From the NCBI GenBank assembly GCA_003486795.1, contig DNFX01000289.1, forward strand, positions 1-10,519: a DNA stretch of 10,519 nt, given 5' to 3'. The notes beneath the pieces were generated by a model. That model saw only the letters and a list, made by a program, of their open reading frames with translations. It searched no databases and was not told the DNA's origin. The stretch is from Actinomycetota bacterium. GTDB lineage: Bacteria > Actinomycetota > Humimicrobiia > Humimicrobiales > Humimicrobiaceae. How positions within the stretch are numbered: position 1 is the stretch's first letter; the number at the start of each line of letters is the position of its first letter. A program made the translations under genes and the position numbers. Shown here one piece after another: positions 1-10,425 of this stretch.

Positions 1-1242
1 CTGGCAAAACCCATCAAAATCGGAAAAAGAACAGCCAAAAACAGATTTGTCATTCAGCCGATGGAATGTGCTGATTCAAGCCCGAGCGGTGGTTTTTCAG
101 AAAGATCGCTTGAACGTTATAAAAATCTTTTCGAAGGTGACGCAGGAGTAATTGTATTTGAATCAATAACAATGCAGTATGACAGCAGGGCAAGAAATTC
201 ACAGATAAGCCTTCAGCCGGATGATAAAGAAAACATCAGGGAATGGGAAAAATTTATAAAGGACATGAGAAAAATCAATCCTGATCCTCTTCTCATTGTC
301 CAGCTTAATCATTCAGGAGAAGTATCAGGTAGTAAGTTCTCAAAAAGAGTCTGCGTCAAACCACTGTACGGATTTGGGGGGGAAGTAATTGATGAAGATT
401 ATGTAGATAATACTATTGATTTATTCGTAAGATCATCAAAGATATTATATGATCTCGGCGCTGATGGCGTTGATCTTAAGTTCTGTCATGGTTATTTTGG
501 TTCCCAGGTTTTAAGACCTTACAATGACCGTAACTGGAAATACGGTCCGACCTGGGAGAAAAGAAGCAGATTTGCCTTTGATATGGTTGAAAAAGTCAGA
601 AAAACTGTGAATGATGATAATTTCATAGTCGGCTCAAAGGTATCAATGTGGGAAGGTTTTCCAGGTGGACAGGGAACTGCAGGTCCTGATACCGGAATAA
701 TCGACCTTACTGAATCAATCGATCTCTGTAAGGGACTTGAAGCAAGAGGTGCCAATTTTATACTTGAATCAACTGGTAATCCTTCAGTAACAATGGAGCT
801 TCACATGCCTGAAAGAGGCAAACCTGACGATGTCTACCTGCATTTTACAATGGCAAAGATAATCAAGGAAAACGTTGGTCCGGACGTAGTTGTAATAGGT
901 GGAGCTTATTCGGTACTTAATAATGGCAAGAATTTCCTGAAAGCAGTTCAGCCTGAGTGGAATTCACTTTTCCATTGGGGTAACTATAATATAGAACACG
1001 GCTATGCTGATATGGTTGCACTCGGAAGACAATCTCTTGCAGACCCGAAACTTCCGGCTAAATATCTTGCTGACAAAGAAGACGAGATAAACTGGTGCAC
1101 TGCCTGTGACAAGTGTGTTGAACTTCTGATAAGACAGGAAAATGTGGGATGCACAGTTTACAACAGACCTTATACTGAATTAATAAGAAAAGTAAGAGAA
1201 GAAAAAGGCAAATTAAGATTTAAAGTTACCGGCCTTGACTAA
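1..1242 (+). CDS. Old Yellow Enzyme-like NADH:flavin oxidoreductase with Fe-S cysteines (5' end missing)
   Basis: The frame is open from base 1, so the true start lies outside the window. The 20 residues before the first visible ATG (61) read as the normal OYE N-terminus, with PIKIG and KNRFVIQPME, so that ATG is internal. The protein is an FMN TIM-barrel ene-reductase-type enzyme. Numbered from the ATG, the substrate/flavin motif is KFCHGYF (140-146): the usual first His of HxxH is Lys140 and His143 is kept. The common YGGS-ENR stretch reads YGPTWEKR. Near the C-terminus, Cys346, Cys349, Cys352 and Cys364 form a CxxCxxC-x11-C cluster resembling the 4Fe-4S site of the 2,4-dienoyl-CoA reductase branch. 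The protein then stops, without the C-terminal FAD/NAD(P) domains of that branch. An external electron donor is therefore likely. The substrate is unknown. A terminator follows, so it probably ends its own transcript. Confidence 0.9.
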   Translation: MAKPIKIGKRTAKNRFVIQPMECADSSPSGGFSERSLERYKNLFEGDAGVIVFESITMQYDSRARNSQISLQPDDKENIREWEKFIKDMRKINPDPLLIVQLNHSGEVSGSKFSKRVCVKPLYGFGGEVIDEDYVDNTIDLFVRSSKILYDLGADGVDLKFCHGYFGSQVLRPYNDRNWKYGPTWEKRSRFAFDMVEKVRKTVNDDNFIVGSKVSMWEGFPGGQGTAGPDTGIIDLTESIDLCKGLEARGANFILESTGNPSVTMELHMPERGKPDDVYLHFTMAKIIKENVGPDVVVIGGAYSVLNNGKNFLKAVQPEWNSLFHWGNYNIEHGYADMVALGRQSLADPKLPAKYLADKEDEINWCTACDKCVELLIRQENVGCTVYNRPYTELIRKVREEKGKLRFKVTGLD

Positions 1243-1500: not shown

Positions 1501-1518
1501 GCAGGAGAATAGCAGGTG
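1501..1518 (+). promoter_or_regulatory. Shine-Dalgarno site deciding a GTG start
   Basis: GCAGGAG (1501-1507) lies eight bases before GTG at 1516. The first downstream in-frame ATG (residue 8, TMIYE) has no comparable site at a good distance and would remove the first beta strand (YIGIS). GTG is therefore preferred. Confidence 0.7.
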
Positions 1519-2355
1519 TATATTGGTATAAGCACAATGATATATGAAACTGAAAAAAGTCTGGATAATCTTAAAGAATTCAGCTATATAGATAACCTTG
1601 GGTTGAAATATATAGAACTTTCAGATGCTTTTAATTTTCAGCAGAATGTGCTGAATTCTATCTTAAAGCAGAATCTTGAAGTATTTTCTGTTCATGCAGA
1701 ATATATGGGTGCAGATATTTCAAGTCCGGACGAAAAAATACGATCCAATGGTATCGATGATGCATTAAAAAGAATAAAATATCTGAAAGAGTTAAACGGA
1801 AGCATAATTGTAATTCATCCGGGTGGATGGTTTTCAGATAGGAATGAAAAAAATAAGAGAATAAAAAACTGTATAAACAGCCTGGTATATATTCTGAATA
1901 GAAAGCCTTCAGGAAATATAAAAATTGCAATCGAAAACCTGCCCATGGAATTTTTTGGTGATGATATCGAGATTATCAAATATATTCTTAATGAAAGCAG
2001 AAAAATAACCGGCACCAAGGAAGAAACCGGCATATGTCTTGATACCGGCCACGCTTTTCTGACAGATAGTATCTACGATTATCTTGATATTTTATATGAT
2101 GACATAATAAGTATTCATTTACATGACAATACAGGGGATAATAACAGAGACAGATCAGGGGCAGAAGATGATCTTCATGCAGTTCCTGGGGAAGGATTAA
2201 TAGACTGGAATAAGATTTTTAATATCCTATCAGATAAAAAATATAATGGCGGTCTGATATTTGAGGTGAAGAAAGGTAAAAAAACACTTGAGCAGACAAT
2301 GCAGGAAATAAAGCATTTCATAGACAGTAATCTTTTTCTGAAAAAGAATATTTAG
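1516..2355 (+). CDS. Sugar phosphate isomerase/epimerase-like TIM-barrel protein
   Basis: This 279-residue protein has the normal length for the xylose isomerase-like/AP endonuclease 2 TIM-barrel family (PF01261). Members bind one or two divalent metals and interconvert keto/aldo sugars or epimers; some relatives act as dehydratases or decarboxylases. Visible candidate metal and catalytic residues are His60 (SVHAEY), His101 (VIHPGGW), Glu140 (IAIENLP), Asp176 and His179 (CLDTGHA), His201/His203 (SIHLHDN), His221 (LHAVPGEG) and Glu250 (LIFEVK). This full set suggests an active enzyme. It starts with GTG behind a good ribosome site and is followed after 45 bases by an MFS permease, probably in the same operon. 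The pairing suggests uptake and first conversion of a sugar-like compound. The exact substrate cannot be assigned; a hexulose, inosose or sugar-acid enzyme would look similar. Confidence 0.85.
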   Translation: MYIGISTMIYETEKSLDNLKEFSYIDNLGLKYIELSDAFNFQQNVLNSILKQNLEVFSVHAEYMGADISSPDEKIRSNGIDDALKRIKYLKELNGSIIVIHPGGWFSDRNEKNKRIKNCINSLVYILNRKPSGNIKIAIENLPMEFFGDDIEIIKYILNESRKITGTKEETGICLDTGHAFLTDSIYDYLDILYDDIISIHLHDNTGDNNRDRSGAEDDLHAVPGEGLIDWNKIFNILSDKKYNGGLIFEVKKGKKTLEQTMQEIKHFIDSNLFLKKNI

Positions 2356-2400: not shown

Positions 2401-3612
2401 ATGCAAAAAAAAGATAGATTTCTTGACTATCTTGTTGAACTCCCCAATTATCTTACTATTTTCATAACTCCCATTTATTTTCTTACGATAGGGCCGATGC
2501 TTATTGAGATGAGCAGGGATACGGGTTTTAGTACTGAAAACCTGAATCTTATTATAACTTTCTTCACTATTGGTCTTGTAGTAGGGCAGCTTACTTCTAT
2601 AATTTATAACAGATTCATGAAAAAAGTTGCAATCCTTACTATCAGTTATATTTTACAGATATGTCTTCTGATTACCCTGAGCTTTGTAAAAGATTTAATT
2701 GTATTTTATGTTTTTTATGTATTGATGGGATACATCGCTGGGGTTATCTGGATTCAGGCAACAAATTATATACTGGAAAGCAAAATAAATAATAAACCAC
2801 GCCTTACCACTATTTTCTTAAGTTTTTATCCTGTAGGTAATTTTGTAGCACCTTTTATCGCATCAAGTCTTATAAAAAATAATCTTAACTGGAGATATTC
2901 ATATTATATAACTGCTTTTATTGCACTCATTGTTCTGCTGCTTTATTTCTTTGTGAAGAAAATAAATAAAAAGGAAAATATATTAAATGAAAAAACAGAG
3001 AAAATAAATTTCAAAGAGGTTTTCAAAATAAGATATATAAATATTGTTTTTATTCTCGGATGCACCCTGCTTTTCTTTTATGTTATTCCTGAAACAATTT
3101 TTGCTACCTGGTCTGCTACTTTTCTGAGAAAGCTGAGGTTTTTTGAGATTGATAAAGCAAGTCTTGCTGTTTCCATATTCTGGATGGCAATTTTTGCCGG
3201 CCGATTGATAGTGAGTACTTTTGCGGGCAGGATAAAATCAAATTATATTATGCTTGTTCTGTCAGCAATAGGAATAATATCAATGGCTTTATTTGTAATA
3301 GCAAAATCACCTGTATTTATTTATCTGGCAATAGCATTTGCAGGACTGGGCTGTTCCGGAATCATTACTCTGGGAATAGCTGATGCAAGCACTGTATATG
3401 AAAAAGGAAGAGGGCTGCTGGCAAGCATTGTTTTTGCTGTCGTAAACTTTGGCACATCGATTACTCCGTTTATTACAAAATTTATTTCAGTTCGCAATCT
3501 TTCGTGGTCAGTAGGAGTTGCCTCAATATTTATGTTTTTAACTTTTATGACAATTATTATTAAAATTATTTATGAGAGAAGAAATATAAAAAATCAGGTG
3601 GCATCAATTTGA
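2401..3612 (+). CDS. MFS transporter, possibly of the FHS/TsgA-like group
   Basis: This 403-residue integral membrane protein has about twelve hydrophobic segments (roughly 15-35, 46-68, 74-95, 98-124, 136-157, 165-186, 212-233, 252-274, 282-300, 304-326, 336-360 and 370-391). A basic, polar central loop at about 187-211 splits the two halves, as in the major facilitator superfamily. The ARG-like charged loop after segment 2 is RFMKK (71-75). Segment 5 is followed by NWRYSYY, similar to the common WRxxF. The stretch ETIFATWSATFLR (231-243) resembles the FHS sugar/TsgA-like branch, so a sugar or polyol proton symporter is plausible, but the substrate is not proven. A ribosome site (AGGCAGGA) precedes the ATG. 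Its gene lies 45 bases after the isomerase gene, suggesting co-transcription. No terminator is clear in the 193 bases before the next gene. Confidence 0.85.
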   Translation: MQKKDRFLDYLVELPNYLTIFITPIYFLTIGPMLIEMSRDTGFSTENLNLIITFFTIGLVVGQLTSIIYNRFMKKVAILTISYILQICLLITLSFVKDLIVFYVFYVLMGYIAGVIWIQATNYILESKINNKPRLTTIFLSFYPVGNFVAPFIASSLIKNNLNWRYSYYITAFIALIVLLLYFFVKKINKKENILNEKTEKINFKEVFKIRYINIVFILGCTLLFFYVIPETIFATWSATFLRKLRFFEIDKASLAVSIFWMAIFAGRLIVSTFAGRIKSNYIMLVLSAIGIISMALFVIAKSPVFIYLAIAFAGLGCSGIITLGIADASTVYEKGRGLLASIVFAVVNFGTSITPFITKFISVRNLSWSVGVASIFMFLTFMTIIIKIIYERRNIKNQVASI

Positions 3613-3805
3613 TCTGCCGATATGCTTTTTACAGGTAAACAAAAACAGGTTTGATCCCGGCTGGATATTCAGAATTTTATTTTTTAAATTTATAATTATC
3701 AAGAAAGTATTCATGCAGAAATATTTTGACAAATAATTATAAAATTTTGGAATAAGAAAAAACAAGTTAAAATAGAATAAAAAAAATTATAAGGATAAGG
3801 TTATT
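3613..3805 (+). promoter_or_regulatory. Leader of the RuBisCO-like gene with a possible promoter
   Basis: There is no gene here. A perfect TTGACA lies at 3726-3731; the best partner is TGGAAT (3748-3753, 16-base spacer), which is only a 4/6 match to TATAAT, so the promoter call is tentative. TTATCA at 3696-3701 resembles the half-site seen at the DeoR control region but may be chance. AAGGATAAGG (3791-3800) is the ribosome site for the ATG at 3806. No clear terminator for the permease gene was found. Confidence 0.35.
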
Positions 3806-5098
3806 ATGAATGATTATTATGATATTTCACCCGTGATTCTGGCAGAAGAAGGTTTTGAAGGCGATTATATTATTGCCTCGTATTTTTATATTGCAAAATC
3901 TGATGAGGATATTTATGAAAAGGCAAAATCATTTGCAGTGGGGCAGACTATAGGTACCTGGATACCGGTTCCCGGTATTACTCCGGAGATGAAAAAGAAA
4001 TATGGCGGAAGAGTTGTAAGTATTTATGATATACCTCCTGCTGAGCTGACACCAGATCTGCCTGAAGAAACATACCATATAATTCAGATTGCTTTTCCTG
4101 ATGAAAATTTTCTTCCACAAATTCCGATGCTTATGACAACACTCCTGGGAAATGATGTTTCCACTTCAGCACAGGTAAAACTTGTTGACATCAAATTCTC
4201 AAGAAAATTTTTAAAAGCTTTCAGAGGACCCAGATTCGGAATTGACGGAATATATGATTATATTGGCCTTGGTTTACAGAGAAGACCTCTGGTGCTTAAT
4301 ATGATAAAGCCTTGCCTTGGTTATTCGGCAAGTGAGGGAGCTTCAATTTTCAGGCAGATAGCTCTGGGAGGGGTAGATATAATCAAGGATGATGAATTGT
4401 TTGCAGACACTAATTATAGTTCTATAAAAGACAGAGTACGTTTATACAAAAAAGCTGCAAAGGAAGTATATGAGCAGACAGGACATCTTACAAGATATTG
4501 TGTAAATATAACTGACAGATTTGACAAGGTTATCGAGCATGCAAAAACGGCAACAGAAGAAGGTGCTGATTTTTTAATGATTAATTTTGTTGCAACAGGT
4601 ATAAGTGTGCTTCAGACAATTACAGAGATGGATGAAATAAAAATACCGATTGTTGCTCATTATGCAACTGCAGGTTCAATGACAGAGTCACCTTTTACCG
4701 GTATCTCCACGCCACTTCTTCTGGGTAAGTTTGCAAGGATGACAGGGGCGGATATGTGTCTTTTTAGTTCTCCTTACAGCACCTATCCTTTCCTTAAAAG
4801 AAGGTATAAACAGATAGCAGATATGCAGAGGCTTCCCTTTGGGGAATTAAAGTCCACAATGCCGGTAATCGGGGGAGGAGTTCATCCCAATAGTGCTGAA
4901 AAAATAGTTAACGAACTCGGGAAAGAAATAGTGCTGGCAAGCGGAGGTGCAATACTCGGACATCCTATGGGACCTACAGAGGGGGCCAGATCCATGATGC
5001 AGGCAGCAGATGCTCTTGGCAGAGGTATGACTCTGCAGCAGGCTGCTTTACTAAAGGGTTATGAACCTCTAAAGGTTTCTATTGAAAAATGGAAGTAA
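3806..5098 (+). CDS. Form IV RuBisCO-like protein
   Basis: This 430-residue protein is homologous to the RuBisCO large subunit along its whole length, with an alpha/beta N-terminal domain (about 15-140) and a TIM barrel (about 150-420). Kept positions (spinach numbering in brackets) are GTW at 50-52, Asn116 (N123), Lys168 in IKPCLG (K175), Lys194-Asp195-Asp196-Glu197 (carbamate K201, D203, E204), His285 (H294), the GGGVH loop (355-360) and SGG-LGHP (379-387). Lost positions are E60 (Gly46), K177 (Cys170), R295 (Tyr286), loop-6 K334 (region 318-328 reads CLFSSPYSTYP) and S379 (Gly). The metal/enolate centre is therefore intact but the carboxylation residues are not, which is typical of Form IV. 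Known relatives act as a diketo-methylthiopentyl-phosphate enolase (MtnW), as a methylthioribulose-1-phosphate isomerase, or in D-apiose breakdown. No methionine-salvage genes lie nearby, so a sugar-acid role is the better inference. It is unlikely to fix CO2. Confidence 0.9.
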   Translation: MNDYYDISPVILAEEGFEGDYIIASYFYIAKSDEDIYEKAKSFAVGQTIGTWIPVPGITPEMKKKYGGRVVSIYDIPPAELTPDLPEETYHIIQIAFPDENFLPQIPMLMTTLLGNDVSTSAQVKLVDIKFSRKFLKAFRGPRFGIDGIYDYIGLGLQRRPLVLNMIKPCLGYSASEGASIFRQIALGGVDIIKDDELFADTNYSSIKDRVRLYKKAAKEVYEQTGHLTRYCVNITDRFDKVIEHAKTATEEGADFLMINFVATGISVLQTITEMDEIKIPIVAHYATAGSMTESPFTGISTPLLLGKFARMTGADMCLFSSPYSTYPFLKRRYKQIADMQRLPFGELKSTMPVIGGGVHPNSAEKIVNELGKEIVLASGGAILGHPMGPTEGARSMMQAADALGRGMTLQQAALLKGYEPLKVSIEKWK

Positions 5099-5128
5099 AA
5101 AAATCTTTTTTCTATTCTGTTGTTTATA

Positions 5129-5164
5129 AAAAATCAGCCTGATTTTTTGTTCAGGCTGATTTTT
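5129..5164. terminator. Strong bidirectional terminator between convergent genes
   Basis: A perfect 14-bp stem is formed by AAAAATCAGCCTGA (5129-5142) and TCAGGCTGATTTTT (5151-5164), with an 8-base loop. It has a GC core with A runs on the left and T runs on the right, so it works in both directions. It lies between the ends of the RuBisCO-like gene (5098, plus) and the Tm-1-like gene (5192, minus). Confidence 0.93.
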
Positions 5165-5191
5165 ATTCAATCATATTAAATAATTTAAATA

Positions 5192-6574
5192 CTACTCAAC
5201 TACATTCTTTAAATCCCTGTACATCCCTTTTTTCCATTTTTTATCCAGCATGTCTCCCATACATCTGTTTAAGAATTCTGCAAATTCAACATCAAGAATA
5301 TGATTATCACATTTTATAATGTCAAGATTATCATTGTTCCTGTCCCAGTTTTTCATAAATACGTCCCACATTAATGTAGCTCTTCTTGACCATTTGGGAT
5401 TATCAGGATCAGGCCACCAGACAGGTCCGTCTCCGTTTTCTTTTGCCCATCCCTTATCAACGCAAGCATCTTCAGCAGACTGATCATAAGCACTCCAGCC
5501 TTTCATAGGAACAATTAGTGCTGTCGGACCGTTTGTTTTGTTTAATTTTGTGATTATTTCAAGTGCCAGTTCCTCAGTTTCTTCTTTGTTGGGTACCATA
5601 ATTGTAACAGCTGAGTTATGGATGTATGGTTTGCCAGAATTTTTATATGATACCCTGCTTCCATCCCTGAAACCTTCAAGGTATTTTTCAGGAACTGTAT
5701 TTATGGGTCCATAAGCTGACTGATCAAGACCGCCCGGACAGACTATCTGGGGTATACCCATTCTGCTTGCTGCTGTAAGTCTTTCTCCTTCCCATTCACT
5801 GCTTATGCCGTAGATACTTCCATATTTTGTATTGCTAAGCTCACCTATTGTGATATCAAAAACAGCTGTAATTTCTCCCGAATCTATCAGGTCTTCCATA
5901 GTGGCACCCGTTCCCACCTGGTGAATGATGATGGAATCCCATCCTCTGTCATTCATAAATTTCTCACATCTTATAACGGTAGGTGTAGTAGTTCCGTAAG
6001 CTGTAAGTGCTACAAGTGGTTTTGCATCAGTCAGAGGTACATCCTTGTATTTTGCCATTCCGACTATTGCTGAGGAAGCATTGCCTATTATTTTTCTTGT
6101 AACTCTGTTTATTCCTTTTTCAGAAACAGGGTTTACAATGTAAATATCCTTATTTCCCAGCCAGCTGCTTACATCTCCTGAAGCAAGAGTTGACAGCATA
6201 ATTTTTGGAAAGCCAATAGGAAGAGCTCTCATTACCATGGTAGCAGTGGATGTCCCGACCGAACCTGCCCATGATATTACGCCGTCAATCTGATTGTTTT
6301 CATAAAGTTTGGTGATTTTGGCTGCTCCTGCCTTTCCTACAAGAGATATTGCGTCTGATCTGGAAGCTTTAAATACTTCCTCCTTCTCAAGCCCGCTTTC
6401 AGCAAGAACTTCTGAAAGAGAAATATCGGCCCATCCGACTTCATGACCTAGGCTTATTTCCATTATTATCGGATTGCCACCTGCTTTTTTTACTTCCTGT
6501 GCAAGAAATTTTATTTCATCTCCTTTGATATCCAGGATTCCCATGCAAAGTATATTTGGTTTTTTGTTGTTCAT
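5192..6574 (-). CDS. UPF0261 family, Tm-1-like ATP-binding protein
   Basis: This 460-residue protein belongs to UPF0261, the family of the N-terminal ATP-binding half of tomato Tm-1, which blocks tomato mosaic virus replication. The bacterial role is not established. Recognisable motifs in order are ILDIKGDE (13-20; usually GTKGDE), the glycine-rich WAGSVGTSTA (102-111), MLSTLASGD (126-134), TAYGTTTP (191-198), IHQVGTGA (217-224), DITIGEL (240-246), RLTAASRMGIPQIVCPGGLD (265-284), HNSAVTIM (319-326) and VPMKGWSAYD (355-364). It is longer than the roughly 400 residues typical of the family; the extra part, from about 375, is rich in Trp and Asp (VWWPDPDNPKWSRR) and is not recognised. The ribosome site is AAGGAAG four bases before the ATG. 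It is second in a two-gene minus-strand operon after the PF09370 gene. A kinase or ligase-type ATP use in carbohydrate breakdown is possible but is inference. Confidence 0.87.
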   Translation of the reverse strand: MNNKKPNILCMGILDIKGDEIKFLAQEVKKAGGNPIIMEISLGHEVGWADISLSEVLAESGLEKEEVFKASRSDAISLVGKAGAAKITKLYENNQIDGVISWAGSVGTSTATMVMRALPIGFPKIMLSTLASGDVSSWLGNKDIYIVNPVSEKGINRVTRKIIGNASSAIVGMAKYKDVPLTDAKPLVALTAYGTTTPTVIRCEKFMNDRGWDSIIIHQVGTGATMEDLIDSGEITAVFDITIGELSNTKYGSIYGISSEWEGERLTAASRMGIPQIVCPGGLDQSAYGPINTVPEKYLEGFRDGSRVSYKNSGKPYIHNSAVTIMVPNKEETEELALEIITKLNKTNGPTALIVPMKGWSAYDQSAEDACVDKGWAKENGDGPVWWPDPDNPKWSRRATLMWDVFMKNWDRNNDNLDIIKCDNHILDVEFAEFLNRCMGDMLDKKWKKGMYRDLKNVVE

Positions 6575-6621
6575 AGAACTTCCTTTTTATTTAGCTGATT
6601 TGATTAGAATTAATTATTTAC

Positions 6622-7455
6622 TTATCTGGCTATAGGAATGTTTTTATATTCTTCTGTAACTTCAAGAATAGCCTTTTCGATAGGCATTCTTTCTGCCGCA
6701 GATCCGCCTGTAAATCCCTGTGCATTGGTATTCTTAAATATATATTCTACTTCTTTCGGGCCTTCTATAGGACCACCATGTGCAAAAAGAATAACATTTT
6801 TATTTACTTTCCTGGCAGCATCAAATATTTTCTGGCTTAGCTGAGCAGCTTCATCAAGTGACATTGTTGCTTTTGCACCGATAGTCCCGCCCTTTGTTGA
6901 ACCAACATGTGATGAAATAATATCTGCACCTGCATCTGCAAGGATTTCGGCTTCTTCAGGTGAAAAAGCATAGCAGAATGTAAACATTTTCATTTCTTTT
7001 GCAACTTTTACGAATTCAACTTCATTGCTCCAGCCCATTCCTATCTGCTCAATCTGAACACTGAATGTTTCTCCATAGAGTTTGCTTATAAACGGATTGA
7101 CGCCTGATATTCCCATATCCCATAATTTCTGAAGATGTTCCCTGTGAGGCAACAGGGGATTGTGTGGTGACGAAAGAGATATTACCGGTGCTTCTTTAAC
7201 CATCGGCAGTATTTCTACGGATAGGTCAAAAACAATCTGATTTACATCCCAGAATGGCAGAAAAGCAGCAACAGAACCAAGACCTTTTAATCTGCAATAA
7301 CTGGTGGGAGAAATACAGATTAAATCAGAACCTCCTTTTTCCTGAAGTTTTGCAGAAATTCCCATTCCACAGTTCGGCATGAATAACGGTTTTTTCCTGG
7401 ATATTTCTGTCTGAAGTCTTTCAACTATTTCCTCTGAAGTATATCTTTTAGCCAT
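6622..7455 (-). CDS. PF09370 'phosphoenolpyruvate hydrolase' family TIM-barrel protein
   Basis: This 277-residue protein is near the usual family length. The family is the bacterial counterpart of the C-terminal half of plant Tm-1 and is distantly like PEP mutase/isocitrate lyase barrels; the 'PEP hydrolase' name is weakly supported. Family signatures are PNCGMGISAKLQEKGGSDLI (27-46), RLKGLGSVAAFLPFWDVNQI (55-74), MGISGVNPF (about 114-122), ISSHVGSTKGGTIGAKA (about 180-196), HGGPIEGPKEV (226-236) and GFTGGSAAERMPIEKAI (248-264). Several positions differ from the forms I recall as most common, for example the ICISPTSYCR stretch. The start has a strong ribosome site (AAGGGG, five bases from the ATG). 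It leads the minus-strand operon, with the Tm-1-like gene 47 bases behind, and is divergent from the DeoR regulator. The product probably works in the cytoplasm together with its partner, perhaps as one complex, because plants fuse the two modules. Confidence 0.87.
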   Translation of the reverse strand: MAKRYTSEEIVERLQTEISRKKPLFMPNCGMGISAKLQEKGGSDLICISPTSYCRLKGLGSVAAFLPFWDVNQIVFDLSVEILPMVKEAPVISLSSPHNPLLPHREHLQKLWDMGISGVNPFISKLYGETFSVQIEQIGMGWSNEVEFVKVAKEMKMFTFCYAFSPEEAEILADAGADIISSHVGSTKGGTIGAKATMSLDEAAQLSQKIFDAARKVNKNVILFAHGGPIEGPKEVEYIFKNTNAQGFTGGSAAERMPIEKAILEVTEEYKNIPIAR

Positions 7456-7483
7456 ATTTTCCCCTTTCTTATTATTTTAAAGT

Positions 7484-7512
7484 TTGATAATTATTATTAT
7501 TTCTTTTGTCAG
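7484..7512 (-). promoter_or_regulatory. Predicted promoter of the PF09370/Tm-1-like operon
   Basis: Read on the minus strand, CTGACA (7507-7512; five of six to TTGACA) and TATCAA (7484-7489; four of six to TATAAT) are separated by 17 bases. Transcription would begin near 7477, giving a leader of about 22 bases that still contains the ribosome site at 7461-7466. The -10 lies inside the operator-like sequence GTTTGATAA (7482-7490), so a bound repressor would block it. This is a pattern match only. Confidence 0.4.
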
Positions 7513-7595
7513 ATAAAATAAAAAATCTGATATTGATTCATAATACTGTAAAAATGAAAATTGATTTTAAAAAAAGTATATTACTATTAATATTT

Positions 7596-7616
7596 TTTAT
7601 CAAACAAAATGATAAA
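7596..7616. promoter_or_regulatory. 21-bp dyad, candidate DeoR-family operator
   Basis: TTTATCA (7596-7602), seven bases, then TGATAAA (7610-7616) form a perfect dyad in the middle of the divergent control region. TTATCAAAC (7597-7605) is also the exact reverse complement of GTTTGATAA (7482-7490), about 115 bases away on the divergent promoter. A related TTGATAA is at 7662-7668. Repeated half-sites of one type at both promoters fit binding by the adjacent DeoR-like protein. The low complexity of the region is a caution. Confidence 0.45.
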
Positions 7617-7661
7617 TATTCTAAATATTTTAATAATAATTTTCATTATTAATTCATTTTA

Positions 7662-7690
7662 TTGATAAGAATAATAAATAATGCTATATT
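7662..7690 (+). promoter_or_regulatory. Predicted promoter of the DeoR-family gene
   Basis: TTGATA (7662-7667) and TATATT (7685-7690) are separated by exactly 17 bases, and TGC directly before the -10 gives an extended -10 element. Both hexamers are five of six matches to the sigma-70 consensus. Transcription would start near 7697, giving a leader of about 117 bases. The -35 overlaps TTGATAA (7662-7668), the same half-site as in the dyad at 7596-7616, which fits autoregulation. Confidence 0.55.
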
Positions 7691-7691
7691 T

Positions 7692-7784
7692 TTTATAGAA
7701 TTTCATTCTCTTTCATTAGCAGAAAGACTATTTTAGTTAAATTATTATTTATAGAATTATTCTTTTTAATTTATTAGAATTATT
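7692..7784. repeat. Short direct repeats in the DeoR leader
   Basis: TTTATAGAATT occurs at 7692-7702 and 7748-7758, 56 bases apart. AGAATTATT occurs at 7753-7761 and 7776-7784, 23 bases apart. All lie between the predicted promoter and the start codon of the DeoR-family gene. They may be binding sites or simply low-complexity AT sequence. Otherwise the 358-base region 7456-7813 shows no gene. Confidence 0.3.
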
Positions 7785-7813
7785 AAATCATTTTATATTT
7801 TCGGGATTAAAAA

Positions 7814-8605
7814 ATGAGTGGTTCAATCAGAAGACAAGCTATTTTGGATTTTCTTGATGAAAAAGAGGAAGTCAGCACTGATTTTCTGGCAAAAAAACTG
7901 AAAGTATCGAAACCTACCATTTACAGGGATCTTATTATTCTGGAAGGTGAGGGTTATCTCAAGAAAACTACAAATGGAGCAATAAAAATAAATGATTTTT
8001 TAATAGAAAAAAATGGTTACTTTTCTGTCGGATTAAAGGTAGATTTAAATGAAAAAAAAGCAGTTGCAAAAAAAGCTCTGGAATTTATAAAAAGTGGTGA
8101 CACCATAATAATCGATGCGGGCAGCATCAATTATCTGGCAGCCAGAGAGATAAACAAATCCAGCCTTACCAATATAAATATAATAACAAGTAATGTTATT
8201 ACCCAGCTTGCACTAGTCCAGCATAAAGATAAATATGTGCGGGTTTTTGCAACAGGCGGACTTATAAAAGATGGATGTGCAAGCACGGGAGGAGATTTTT
8301 CGGAAAATTTATTAAACGACCTTATTGCTGACAAAGTTTTTCTTACTACCAAAGGTATTGACCTGAGCGGAAACCTTACAGAATATGATTACGGTGAATG
8401 TGTAATGAAAAAAAGATTTCTGGAAAAATCAAAAACGAAGATTCTTCTTACCCAGAGCCAGAAATTCGGAAAGGTTGGCATATATCAGGTATCAAATATT
8501 TCTGATTTTGATATAATAATTACTGATTCAGGAATTAATAGGCAGCATGAATTTCTGAATCTTATTAAAAAAACCAATATTAATCTAGAAATTGTCAAGG
8601 TCTGA
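7814..8605 (+). CDS. DeoR/GlpR-family transcriptional regulator
   Basis: This 263-residue protein has the normal DeoR-family layout. A winged helix-turn-helix occupies about residues 5-58; the recognition helix is KVSKPTIYRDLIILE (30-44) and the wing is GEGYLKKTTNGAIK (45-58). A DeoRC sugar-phosphate sensor domain follows (about 75-240), with DAGS (101-104), IITSN (123-127), the GG loop at 148-149, ADKVFLTTKGID (172-183) and ITDSGI (236-241). DeoR proteins mostly repress sugar catabolic operons and release DNA when a phosphorylated sugar binds. The gene is divergent from the PF09370/Tm-1-like pair and upstream of the amidohydrolase and ComB-like genes, so these are likely targets. The ribosome site is weak (GGGA, seven bases from the ATG), so low expression is expected. 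Confidence 0.92.
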   Translation: MSGSIRRQAILDFLDEKEEVSTDFLAKKLKVSKPTIYRDLIILEGEGYLKKTTNGAIKINDFLIEKNGYFSVGLKVDLNEKKAVAKKALEFIKSGDTIIIDAGSINYLAAREINKSSLTNINIITSNVITQLALVQHKDKYVRVFATGGLIKDGCASTGGDFSENLLNDLIADKVFLTTKGIDLSGNLTEYDYGECVMKKRFLEKSKTKILLTQSQKFGKVGIYQVSNISDFDIIITDSGINRQHEFLNLIKKTNINLEIVKV

Positions 8606-8665: not shown

Positions 8666-9565
8666 ATGCTTATAGATTTTCATACACATTTATGGCCCCA
8701 TGAGAGCCTTACAGCTGATCTGATTAATTATTTCAAATCCAGGGATATCTGGGATGAACAGTACAGCATACTAACAGCTGAAAGATTATTGAAAATAATG
8801 GATAGCAATAATATTAAATCAAGTGTTGTTCTGAGTGCAGTTCTTTCACCTGAAACAGATAATTCAGAAATATTCAGAATGAATCAGTATGTCAGCAGAC
8901 AGATATCTGCAGACAGGGAAAGATTACTTGGGTTTTTCACCATAAATCCTTTTTTCAAAAAAGAAGCATTAAAAATAATGGAAAGAAGTATAAATGAACT
9001 TGGTTTGCGTGGTTTGAAGATGCACCCCTCTTTTCAGGAGATTTTACCTAATGACAGGAAATTATATACTTTCTACAAGAAAATGGAGGAATACGGTCTT
9101 CCAGTTTTGTTTCATTCCGGCTCAATAGGAATAAAACCCTATAAAGATTTTTACTCTAATCCATCCTTTATAGATGAAGTTGCTTGTGATTTTCCGGATC
9201 TCACAATAATAATCGGACATGCAGGAAAGATCTGGTATGAAGAGACTGCAATGCTGTTAAGGAAACATAAAAATGTTTATGCAGATATCAGTACAAATAT
9301 AGGGAGAAGCAGTTCCTTTTCTGAGCATCCCATGTCATGGCTGCTTTATAAGATTAAATCTTATGCGGGACGCATGGACAGACTGATTTTCGGTAGTGAT
9401 TATCCTTTATATATGCAAAGTGAAACGATAGAATGTCTTAAAAAGGCTGTCAGACTCCTTAATGACAGGTATAGTAATTTTATTACTGATGATGATATGG
9501 AAAAAATAATGTATAAAAATGCGGAAGTGCTATTAAGACAGATAAAGAATAAAAGGAGTCGATGA
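8666..9565 (+). CDS. Metal-dependent amidohydrolase (amidohydrolase 2 family, PF04909)
   Basis: This 299-residue TIM-barrel hydrolase has clear metal-site residues. The N-terminal HxH is His6 and His8 (DFHTHLWPH). Then come RGLKMHP (115-121, with Lys118 and His120), His150 (VLFHSGS), His185 (IIGHAGK) and the late Asp245 in FGSDYP (242-247). This pattern matches the ACMSD/4-sulfomuconolactone hydrolase/2-pyrone-dicarboxylate lactonase group, which hydrolyses lactones or decarboxylates acids. A lactonase acting on a sugar acid would suit the neighbourhood, but this is inference. The HTH motif starts just after the ATG, which supports this start, although the ribosome site is poor. The 60-base gap after the DeoR gene is AT-only and may allow read-through. 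The stop codon overlaps the start of the next gene (ATGA), indicating coupled translation. Confidence 0.87.
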   Translation: MLIDFHTHLWPHESLTADLINYFKSRDIWDEQYSILTAERLLKIMDSNNIKSSVVLSAVLSPETDNSEIFRMNQYVSRQISADRERLLGFFTINPFFKKEALKIMERSINELGLRGLKMHPSFQEILPNDRKLYTFYKKMEEYGLPVLFHSGSIGIKPYKDFYSNPSFIDEVACDFPDLTIIIGHAGKIWYEETAMLLRKHKNVYADISTNIGRSSSFSEHPMSWLLYKIKSYAGRMDRLIFGSDYPLYMQSETIECLKKAVRLLNDRYSNFITDDDMEKIMYKNAEVLLRQIKNKRSR

Positions 9566-10425
9566 TAAGTAAAATTAAAAAAACAACAATAAATGTTGCA
9601 CTGACAAATAGTTTTGACAAGAAGTTGCATGAACCGATAATTGCCGGCTCAGTTTGTGCAGTTATTGATACACTAAGGGCAACATCTACCATGTCTGCTG
9701 TTTTCGGTTCAGGATGTGAACGGATAATACTCTCAAAAAATAAAAAGGAAGCCTATGCCTTGAAAGAAATTTTTACTGATTATCTTTTATGCGGGGAAGA
9801 GAACGGTCTTCCTCCTGAAGGATTTGATTATGGGAATTCGCCATATGAGTTTTCAAAACTGAGTCTTTATGGGAAAAAGATAATAATGATGACTACAAAT
9901 GGTACAGTCTCATTTTTCAGACTGCTGAAATCCAGCAGTATTTTTGCACTTTCTCTTCTTAACCTGAGTACAGTACTAAAGCATATGTCTTTAATTGCAA
10001 AAAAAGAAAACAAGGATATTTTCATTTTATGTTCCGGTAAAAAAGGACACATCACATATGACGATGTCTATAATGCAGGGATGGCTGTAAAGAATCTCAT
10101 CGATTTTAATAAAGATGATTACATTATTTCTGACTCTGCGCAGATAGTTCTTGAAATTGTCCGAAATAATACTGACATTGTAAAAGCACTTGAAAACTCA
10201 TGCAGCGGCCAGGCTGTCAGGGACATCGGACAGGATATTGATATAGAATATTGTTCAAAAATCGATAAGTATTCAAATGTGCAGATATTGAAAGTAATCG
10301 ATCTTTTTCTGGAACCTGACAATAAAGAAGGGAAAAAGTATAATGGTATTTTTAAAGAAAGAGACAGATTAAAAAATAATGGTTTTGAAAAATTATTACT
10401 GATGGAAGATTATTTAAAATTATGA
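9562..10425 (+). CDS. ComB-like 2-phosphosulfolactate phosphatase family protein
   Basis: This 287-residue member of PF04029 belongs to a family in which methanogen ComB removes phosphate from 2-phosphosulfolactate in coenzyme M synthesis (EC 3.1.3.71). Bacterial relatives are common and often of unproven substrate. Clear family motifs are AVIDTLRATST (33-43), CGEENGLPPEGFDYGNSP (77-94), MMTTNGTVSF (109-118), ILCSGKKGHITYDDVYNAG (155-173) and DIDIEYCSKID (225-235), which include the Mg-binding acidic residues. The normal fold is about 240 residues; here about 40 charged residues (from about 250) follow and are not recognised. AGGAG lies only three bases before the ATG, and the ATGA overlap with the amidohydrolase suggests translational coupling. 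No sulfopyruvate decarboxylase or phosphosulfolactate synthase is present, so a coenzyme M role is not supported here; a sulfolactate-like or other 2-hydroxyacid phosphate is possible. Confidence 0.87.
   Translation: MISKIKKTTINVALTNSFDKKLHEPIIAGSVCAVIDTLRATSTMSAVFGSGCERIILSKNKKEAYALKEIFTDYLLCGEENGLPPEGFDYGNSPYEFSKLSLYGKKIIMMTTNGTVSFFRLLKSSSIFALSLLNLSTVLKHMSLIAKKENKDIFILCSGKKGHITYDDVYNAGMAVKNLIDFNKDDYIISDSAQIVLEIVRNNTDIVKALENSCSGQAVRDIGQDIDIEYCSKIDKYSNVQILKVIDLFLEPDNKEGKKYNGIFKERDRLKNNGFEKLLLMEDYLKL

Follow-up and report, generated by a model that had tools for sequence, protein, structure and literature searches.

Which reaction is catalyzed by a RuBisCO-like protein (RLP) whose gene runs head-on into genes of the UPF0261 and PF09370 families, the two families joined in plant Tm-1? 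The question is raised by a 10,519-nucleotide stretch of Actinomycetota DNA (contig DNFX01000289.1), here called the window. On its plus strand, positions 3806..5098 encode a 430-residue RLP of a clade marked by the motif N-x-x-K-P-C (PF00016, 4.6e-40; aligned with 15 homologues). This gene converges on one for a 460-residue UPF0261 protein on the minus strand at 5192..6574 (PF06792, 1.5e-44, 152.5 bits against a cut-off of 27; UPF0261_C, PF23189, 2.1e-43, 148.6 bits), the stop codons being 93 bp apart. On the same strand, 47 bp upstream of the UPF0261 gene, lies the gene for a 277-residue TIM-barrel protein described as 'PEP hydrolase-like' (6622..7455; PF09370, 4.7e-80, 269.1 bits against a cut-off of 33.8). 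Open reading frames and family profile searches gave nine genes in the window and confirmed the coordinates of an earlier interpretation made from the letters without database searches (the sequence-only reading). That reading had described a form IV RLP converging on UPF0261 and PF09370 genes, surrounded by an isomerase/epimerase, a permease, an amidohydrolase and a DeoR regulator, and frames and families match this description; it had not named a PF00724 oxidoreductase (1..1242) or a ComB-like phosphatase (9562..10425). We regard it as near certain that the module is real and recurrent and that methionine salvage is excluded, and it is probably catabolic, for a sugar acid or a lactone.

To assess the recurrence, an alignment of 16 RLPs was run against the GTDB representative genomes; 300 relatives were confirmed, and the best 80 of them were retained. 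These loci (individual loci carry L numbers below) were picked on the RLP only, with their neighbours disregarded. For 50 of the 80 loci, from 49 genomes, the other 30 being left out, the copies expected by chance were derived from gene number, locus length and genome size. Inside the 50 loci we counted 34 copies of UPF0261 versus 0.32 expected (54 PF06792 matches in the 49 genomes) and 30 copies of PF09370 versus 0.29 (49 matches, two of them below the cut-off); among 14 control genomes each family was present in one. The co-occurrence on which the sequence-only reading had staked its proposal is thus well above chance, and it spans Actinomycetota, Bacillota and Chloroflexota. On viral contigs, 32 stretches matched the search pattern and none was confirmed as a relative.

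The closest relatives of the window are Actinomycetota metagenome-assembled genomes, with RLPs 87-88% identical in L001 (Ca. Humimicrobium), L002 and L008. All nine genes occur in the same order in L001 and also in L002, where the first is cut by the contig end. L138, a relative with an RLP 68-69% identical, has ABC importer genes, PF09370, UPF0261, MFS permease, RLP, directly followed by a triosephosphate isomerase (TIM) paralogue, an MBL-fold protein, a xylose-isomerase-like gene, a second PF09370, an amidohydrolase, a third PF09370, a LuxR-type regulator and an old-yellow-enzyme (OYE)-like gene. Syntrophic Bacillota show the arrangement RLP-PF09370-ComB-UPF0261-PF09370, and Clostridia RLP-amidohydrolase-PF09370-UPF0261 with DeoR, the amidohydrolase sitting between RLP and PF09370-UPF0261 in L017, L025, L045, L058, L065, L067 and L070. 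In Lachnospiraceae, Erysipelotrichaceae and Chloroflexota an MBL-fold protein and UPF0261 adjoin the RLP, often with a class II aldolase and GntR; Muricomes and Faecalicatena have such MBL-partnered UPF0261 proteins. Diplocloster agilis, Petroclostridium sp. X23 and Muricomes intestini are carriers in culture. A Chloroflexota locus (L009:5276-14842) has its RLP ringed by two UPF0261 genes, a URO-D family protein, a 3-hydroxyacyl-CoA dehydrogenase and a 3-keto-acid cleavage enzyme.

The residues of the RLP were examined by comparing 81 members of the clade (the 80 and the window) with Cupriavidus form I RuBisCO (L101), MtnW (L082) and OiaX (L081). Residues are given in RuBisCO numbering, and their roles, including those in the phosphate sites, we take to be the ones they have in RuBisCO. 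K175, the carbamate lysine K201, D203, E204, H294 and N123 are kept in 81/81 proteins, so that, N123 aside, the metal/enediolate core of the superfamily is complete throughout. In the window this core includes the stretch N165-C170 (NMIKPC; 4298..4315, plus strand), in which K168 corresponds to K175, and K194-E197 (KDDE; 4385..4396, plus strand), the carbamylated-lysine/Mg site with K201, D203 and E204. The signature of a carboxylating RuBisCO is absent: C170 replaces K177, a column occupied by Cys in all 81 proteins, and the loop-6 lysine K334 is Thr in the window. The second phosphate (P2) site has been lost, with R295 and H327 replaced in all 81 and S379 in 71, while residues of the first phosphate (P1) site are retained (T65 and W66 in 80 of 81, one being gapped; the Gly pair in all). 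The column of the catalytic lysine of MtnW, presumably K98 of the Geobacillus enzyme, holds Asn in every clade member and Lys in the L082 MtnW. Taken together, the residues fit a Mg-enediolate enzyme for a singly phosphorylated substrate of the type R-CO-CH2-OP, acting in neither carboxylation nor methionine salvage. Separately, E60 and K334 are retained jointly in the same 28 of 81 RLPs, all from the FGGY or syntroph branches introduced below, and are lost elsewhere, the window included; this split suggests that two reaction types may exist within the clade.

By score, MtnW is the closest curated and solved family, and the RLP could on that ground be a DK-MTP-1-phosphate enolase or a related thio-sugar isomerase with unrelated neighbours. 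However, the scores lie below both MtnW cut-offs (304.8 bits versus 513.6 for TIGR03332; 337.3 versus 409 for PRK09549), the catalytic lysine is replaced as just described, and the neighbours recur far above chance. Moreover, the window has no salvage genes, whereas the real mtnW locus L082 has mtnK, a salvage phosphatase and methylthioribulose-1-phosphate dehydratase. An affinity to MtnW, which the sequence-only reading had named as fatal to its proposal, is thus seen neither in the base residue nor in the neighbourhood, and we give this explanation hardly any credence. The RLP also stays far below the cut-off for the 3-oxo-isoapionate-4-phosphate decarboxylase OiaX (149.5 bits versus 700, NF042437).

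The neighbourhoods of the RLP offer candidate sources of phosphate. Among the first 81 loci, 46 had UPF0261, 13 a relative of FGGY kinases, 11 a galactitol-type permease of the phosphotransferase system (PTS) and 11 none of these; none had two. After this exclusivity had been noticed, 61 of the final 142 loci were added. For this extension 398, 400 and 396 genomes from the phyla of three of the carriers were taken, of which 33, 6 and 44 matched at E <= 1e-75; 69 regions were taken, 8 of them duplicates, and genomes already used as well as two contigs judged to be L004 and L007 were left out. The added loci comprised 32 with FGGY, 8 with UPF0261, 5 with PTS, 14 with none, one with UPF0261 and FGGY (L116) and one with FGGY and PTS (L117), whose RLP lacks the N-x-x-K-P-C motif. 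Twelve of the 142 loci were dropped for a missing motif (8 with none, the FGGY loci L122 and L135, the UPF0261 locus L132, and L117). The 130 motif-bearing loci then fell into 53 with UPF0261 only, 43 with FGGY only, 16 with PTS only, one with UPF0261 and FGGY, and 17 with none; where at least 3 kb lay on both sides, exactly one system was present in 87 of 92, two in one and none in four. FGGY was called by tblastn with one query, down to about 25% identity, and some of these calls may be unrelated kinases. OiaX-type RLPs have a DUF1537 kinase directly after the RLP in 5/5 annotated loci examined, a count that excludes two further records bearing no annotation. Of the two RLPs of Lactonifactor longoviformis, that of L014 has FGGY nearby and that of L089 has PF09370-PF09370-UPF0261-PF09370.

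Fisher's test of this exclusivity at 3 kb gave 2e-20 with kinship ignored. In a phylogeny-aware pair test, loci with none of the three systems were kept, as omitting them makes the test nearly circular; with at least 3 kb on both sides, 9 independent tree pairs were obtained, of which, on average, 0 went the same way, 6.3 opposite ways and 2.7 were undecided (median p 0.03; 0.016 with the traits reversed). Family profile searches found no kinase family among the window proteins. Among the 25 commonest of 142 neighbour families, no sugar kinase was found near UPF0261-type loci, though a rarer kinase may hide there (93 of 123 cluster representatives were surveyed, and ten representatives were read one by one). 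Because UPF0261, FGGY kinase and PTS replace one another near the RLP, we read UPF0261 as a supplier of phosphate. The simplest reading is that a gene near the RLP supplies the phosphate, with UPF0261 as one of four solutions. That UPF0261 itself is the phosphorylating enzyme of the module, a role that exclusivity argues for, we rate at a little under one half.

The fate of the carbon is indicated by genes farther along these operons. In L081, an OiaX operon annotated in Rhizobium sp. N871, the DUF1537 kinase, a TIM paralogue and RpiB come after the RLP. Near the RLPs of the present clade, a TIM occurs in 16/53 UPF0261-type, 9/16 PTS-type and 5/43 FGGY-type loci, and RpiB in 15/53, 11/16 and 3/43, respectively. 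The first motif of 11ef (LerI, the solved L-erythrulose-1-phosphate isomerase), IGxxGxPA, is present in some form in 24 of the 29 TIM matches listed from RLP loci, and 20 of these 24 also have the second, DGLF-GR-AW; L008, L020, L078 and L080 lack the motifs, and L004 has too short a TIM. A tree places 23 of 26 RLP-near TIM rows with 11ef and the TIM of the OiaX operon (support 96), apart from nine housekeeping or solved TIMs (support 98), and the RLP-near TIM of C. magnum has 11ef as its best PDB match. Transketolase genes lie in L025, L045 and L102, and transaldolase genes in L025 and L102. Because the RLP-near TIMs group with 11ef, and RpiB, transketolase and transaldolase are nearby, the most likely exit would be L-erythrulose-1-phosphate to erythrose-4-phosphate. 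For the clade as a whole we hold this to be quite probable; for the window's own lineage, where the case is indirect, it is somewhat favoured. The 10.5 kb of the window hold no LerI or DerI isomerase genes, and both are present in many sister loci. Second TIMs exist in the genomes of L001, L002, L005, L008 and L138, those of L008 and L138 near the RLP, and the divergent one of L001 on the contig of the RLP, some 12 kb away from it. The PTS-type loci L034, L038, L054 and L055 carry a GlpA-like FAD dehydrogenase, which would convert R-CHOH-CH2-OP to R-CO-CH2-OP.

Taken as a pathway, these elements would act as follows. The compound would be imported by the MFS permease, and the amidohydrolase would open a lactone or ester, with PF09370 acting somewhere before the RLP. 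If mutual exclusion is a guide, the phosphorylated intermediate would then come from UPF0261, which would most likely act as an ATP-dependent kinase in the position taken in sister operons by the DUF1537 kinase OiaK, an FGGY kinase or a PTS. The RLP would bind the monophosphorylated 2-keto-1-phosphate at its Mg/carbamate centre, form an enediolate and, by analogy with OiaX, release a ketose phosphate with four carbons, either L-erythrulose-1-phosphate or a compound very like it. LerI-type and RpiB-type isomerases, known here from sister loci, would finally yield erythrose-4-phosphate for transketolase and transaldolase. We judge the chances of this whole sequence, from phosphorylated substrate by UPF0261 through erythrulose phosphate by the RLP to erythrose-4-phosphate, to be even. 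As to the starting compound, an ApnO-like oxidoisomerase or a DUF1537 relative was found in 0/142 loci, and D-apionate serves only as a model for the substrate. Dehydroascorbate or 2,3-diketogulonate was considered and dropped, as its cleavage would leave the phosphate at a carbon that does not suit LerI.

A number of results weigh against this pathway. Concerning the kinase step, hhalign comparison of UPF0261 with five DUF1537 kinases gave a probability of 1%, that is, no detectable homology, and the UPF0261 profile retrieved from PDB sequences Tm-1 and 9mpy only and no kinase (a stretch of ribose-phosphate pyrophosphokinase at E 0.03 was taken as chance). L116 has UPF0261 together with its FGGY relative of 28% identity, and L008, with PF09370 and ComB on its contig, lacks UPF0261 there, and none was found in its 1.9 Mb genome. 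With all loci, the pair test gave 11 pairs, 0 the same way, 5.4 opposite and 5.6 undecided, at a median p of 0.06 (0.03 with the traits reversed). Of 55 UPF0261-bearing loci, 54 add PF09370 (33) or an MBL-fold protein (21), none has both and one neither (L032), and FGGY- and PTS-type loci are mostly without either partner. In L090-L097, UPF0261-PF09370 pairs stand in 17-19 kb of sequence that holds no RLP, which means that their role is wider than the RLP pathway. Concerning the exit, the TIM rows of L008, L020 and L078 fall outside the LerI group, and the RLP-near TIM of Caproiciproducens has triosephosphate isomerase as its best PDB match and 11ef second. The second TIMs of L001, L008 and L138 form a separate branch devoid of the LerI signature (those of L002 and L005 were not in the tree), syntrophomonad loci have no LerI or RpiB near the RLP, and several UPF0261-type operons have no evident oxidation step.

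Part of this evidence would also be explained if UPF0261 were no kinase and, with its PF09370 or MBL-fold partner, converted a different incoming compound into the RLP substrate, for example one that arrives phosphorylated or is phosphorylated by an unlinked enzyme. Because the partners are mostly missing from FGGY and PTS loci (PF09370 occurs in 0/43 and 0/16, respectively), UPF0261-type loci may serve another class of substrates, and exclusivity could follow from that. The near-constant partner, the failure to find kinase homology in the PDB-profile and DUF1537 comparisons and the pairs without an RLP all agree with this explanation. However, it leaves the window without a kinase, and the neighbour families listed for UPF0261-type loci include no sugar kinase; ABC genes accompany FGGY- as well as UPF0261-type loci, so that the type of transporter does not split the groups; and the tail of LerI-type TIM and RpiB is common to UPF0261-, PTS- and some FGGY-type loci. 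We consider a non-kinase UPF0261 a serious but less than even possibility. The claim of the sequence-only reading that UPF0261 prepares a phosphorylated substrate accordingly stands in part: the replacement of UPF0261 by FGGY and PTS supports it indirectly, and kinase homology does not.

The family trees bear on how tightly UPF0261 is bound to the RLP. In a UPF0261 tree that carries a warning of long-branch joins, the RLP-linked members lie mainly in two subfamilies. One of these, a supported group of 33 rows, all RLP-linked, contains the window and all PF09370-partnered RLP loci except L005. The RLPs with which its members are paired stand on different branches of the RLP tree, a pattern that favours a functional bond over common descent of the cluster as a whole. 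An alignment revealed a C-terminal stretch (GWxxxGxGPxW.PD...; 5192-5470 in the window) that the PF09370-partnered, RLP-linked members share and that the MBL-partnered ones lack; K17, K124, D143, H218 and E227 are conserved in it. PF09370 and the MBL-fold hydrolase replace each other in UPF0261-type loci. The only solved relative of PF09370 in a search of PDB sequences is Mll9387 (2p10), which lends no support to the PEP-mutase-like role suggested for PF09370 in the sequence-only reading, and the solved UPF0261 protein 9mpy lies far from the RLP-linked subfamilies in the tree; we know of no function for either. According to PMC5028733, the UPF0261 and PF09370-type domains coevolve; bacteria, archaea and fungi usually encode them in separate genes, the fusion in plants being a derived state. 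The expression 'split Tm-1' used in the sequence-only reading is therefore a misnomer, as separate genes are the usual state. In other papers, a UPF0261 gene is listed among late-upregulated genes of brown-rot fungi (table in PMC6867892), and a Brucella UPF0261 gene comes from a mutant screen (PMC2364660). We found no mention of ATP in a Tm-1 paper (PMC12140429), which leaves ATP binding by bacterial UPF0261 unsupported.

The remaining window genes bear on the direction in which the module runs. A ComB-like protein of the 2-phosphosulfolactate phosphatase family is encoded at 9562..10425 on the plus strand (PF04029, 2.3e-57), overlapping by 4 bp the gene of an Amidohydro_2 protein, a putative lactonase or other hydrolase (8666..9565, plus strand; PF04909, 1e-39). 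ComB-like genes occur in 20/53 UPF0261-type loci versus 0/59 FGGY- or PTS-type loci. In L092 (7772-10742) a divergent ComB-like gene accompanies UPF0261-PF09370; the locus has no RLP, and the same genome holds the RLP cluster L028. ComB thus seems to go with UPF0261-PF09370 and not with the RLP. In the window lineage and the syntrophs the pathway might be biosynthetic or salvage-like, with the ComB-like phosphatase freeing an unphosphorylated product and no erythrose-4-phosphate end. The distribution of ComB fits this idea, as do the second TIM of Humimicrobium with its missing LerI signature and the syntrophomonad clusters, which have neither LerI/RpiB nearby nor a transporter gene inside (ABC ATPases lie near L027, L031, L049, L052 and L061). 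However, a permease, a DeoR regulator and the amidohydrolase are all encoded in the window, L138 has its ABC importer genes and the TIM paralogue directly after the RLP, and the nearest UPF0261-PF09370 relatives in Clostridia carry a LerI-type TIM and RpiB. A biosynthetic role is in our view improbable, and we retain the catabolic assignment.

The permease in question is an MFS protein and putative importer (2401..3612, plus strand; PF07690) with relatives in L001, L002, L008, L136 and L138, and the DeoR-family regulator is encoded at 7814..8605 on the plus strand (PF08220 and PF00455). DeoR-type regulators occur in 12/53 UPF0261-type, 5/16 PTS-type and 0/43 FGGY-type RLP loci. The isomerase/epimerase is a xylose-isomerase-like TIM barrel (1516..2355, plus strand; AP_endonuc_2, PF01261), whose sole sequence relative in the PDB is 3wqo (MJ1311); related genes lie upstream of the RLP in L001 and L002 and downstream in L138. 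An OYE-like FMN oxidoreductase (1..1242, plus strand; PF00724) is cut by the window edge, and genes 85-95% identical to it are present in L001, L008 and L138. A scan of positions 3550-7900 for promoters and terminators was not decisive, with 23 promoter-like sites versus 15.5 (standard deviation 4.0) in shuffles and 2 terminator-like sites versus 2.7.

Two further families were seen near these genes. Arylsulfotransferase-family genes (ASST, PF05935) adjoin UPF0261-PF09370 in Clostridia, with an RLP in L058 (4948-9911), L025 and L065 and without one in L091 (11672-15147). In L058 and L091 a symporter of the sodium:sulfate/dicarboxylate type adjoins the ASST genes, a pairing that gives no clue to the substrate. 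A glycerol-3-phosphate-responsive antiterminator (PF04309) lies near the RLP in the syntroph-type loci L027, L028, L031, L042, L049, L052, L068, L104, L105 and L107, which hints at control by a polyol phosphate.

The pairing of UPF0261 with PF09370 by itself gives no clue to chemistry, and both families range from bacteria to plants. Setting UPF0261 in a phosphorylation slot, between hydrolases and an RLP with an erythrulose-phosphate exit, leads to a short list of assays. If right, this placement would also extend the catabolism based on the RuBisCO superfamily by a further branch, in Humimicrobium-type Actinomycetota, Chloroflexota and anaerobic Bacillota, gut lineages among them, and would suggest a role of plant Tm-1-like proteins when virus is absent. 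Tentatively, UPF0261, the family of the inhibitory domain of Tm-1, could be a family of ATP-dependent sugar-acid kinases whose pairing with PF09370, for catabolism or salvage, is conserved across bacteria, archaea, fungi and, in fused form, land plants, and which here feeds an RLP that makes erythrulose phosphate; we lean against this wider proposal without dismissing it. The literature searched, outside which most subscription papers and preprints fall, contained no paper linking RLPs with UPF0261 or with Tm-1 and an isomerase; UPF0261 was named in five papers, and neither PF09370 nor a Tm-1-like ATP-binding protein in any. Within this literature, the module that the sequence-only reading had called undescribed appears to be so for its UPF0261/PF09370 entry only; the LerI/DerI tail is already known from the OiaX pathway.

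Compared with known systems, the window shares with plant Tm-1 and Tm-1-like proteins the same two domains, here in neighbouring genes. It differs from Tm-1 in the separation of these genes, the tie to an RLP and the extra C-terminal stretch of UPF0261, and virus resistance is not relevant to it. MtnW is the best-scoring curated family and resembles the RLP in that R295 and H327 are replaced in the L082 protein too, whereas the window RLP has Asn for the general-base lysine, scores below the cut-offs and has no methionine-salvage genes around it.

The OiaX pathway for D-apionate was reportedly described by Carter and colleagues in 2018. The 2018 work of Carter et al. on RLPs of apiose pathways is cited in PMC6302742 and PMC10176493. 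In the OiaX pathway as in the present loci, an RLP with the same metal/carbamate core stands beside a phosphorylating enzyme, a LerI-type TIM paralogue and an RpiB-type isomerase. Unlike the OiaX pathway, in which the kinase is of the DUF1537 type, this clade has UPF0261, FGGY or PTS in that place and no ApnO-like or DUF1537 gene in its 142 loci. The window RLP is 26% identical to an annotated OiaX (H9), far under the cut-off for that family, and has lost both R295 and K334, which OiaX keeps. We conclude that the module is related to the OiaX-type pathway and that its entry part is made up of UPF0261, PF09370, the amidohydrolase and ComB.

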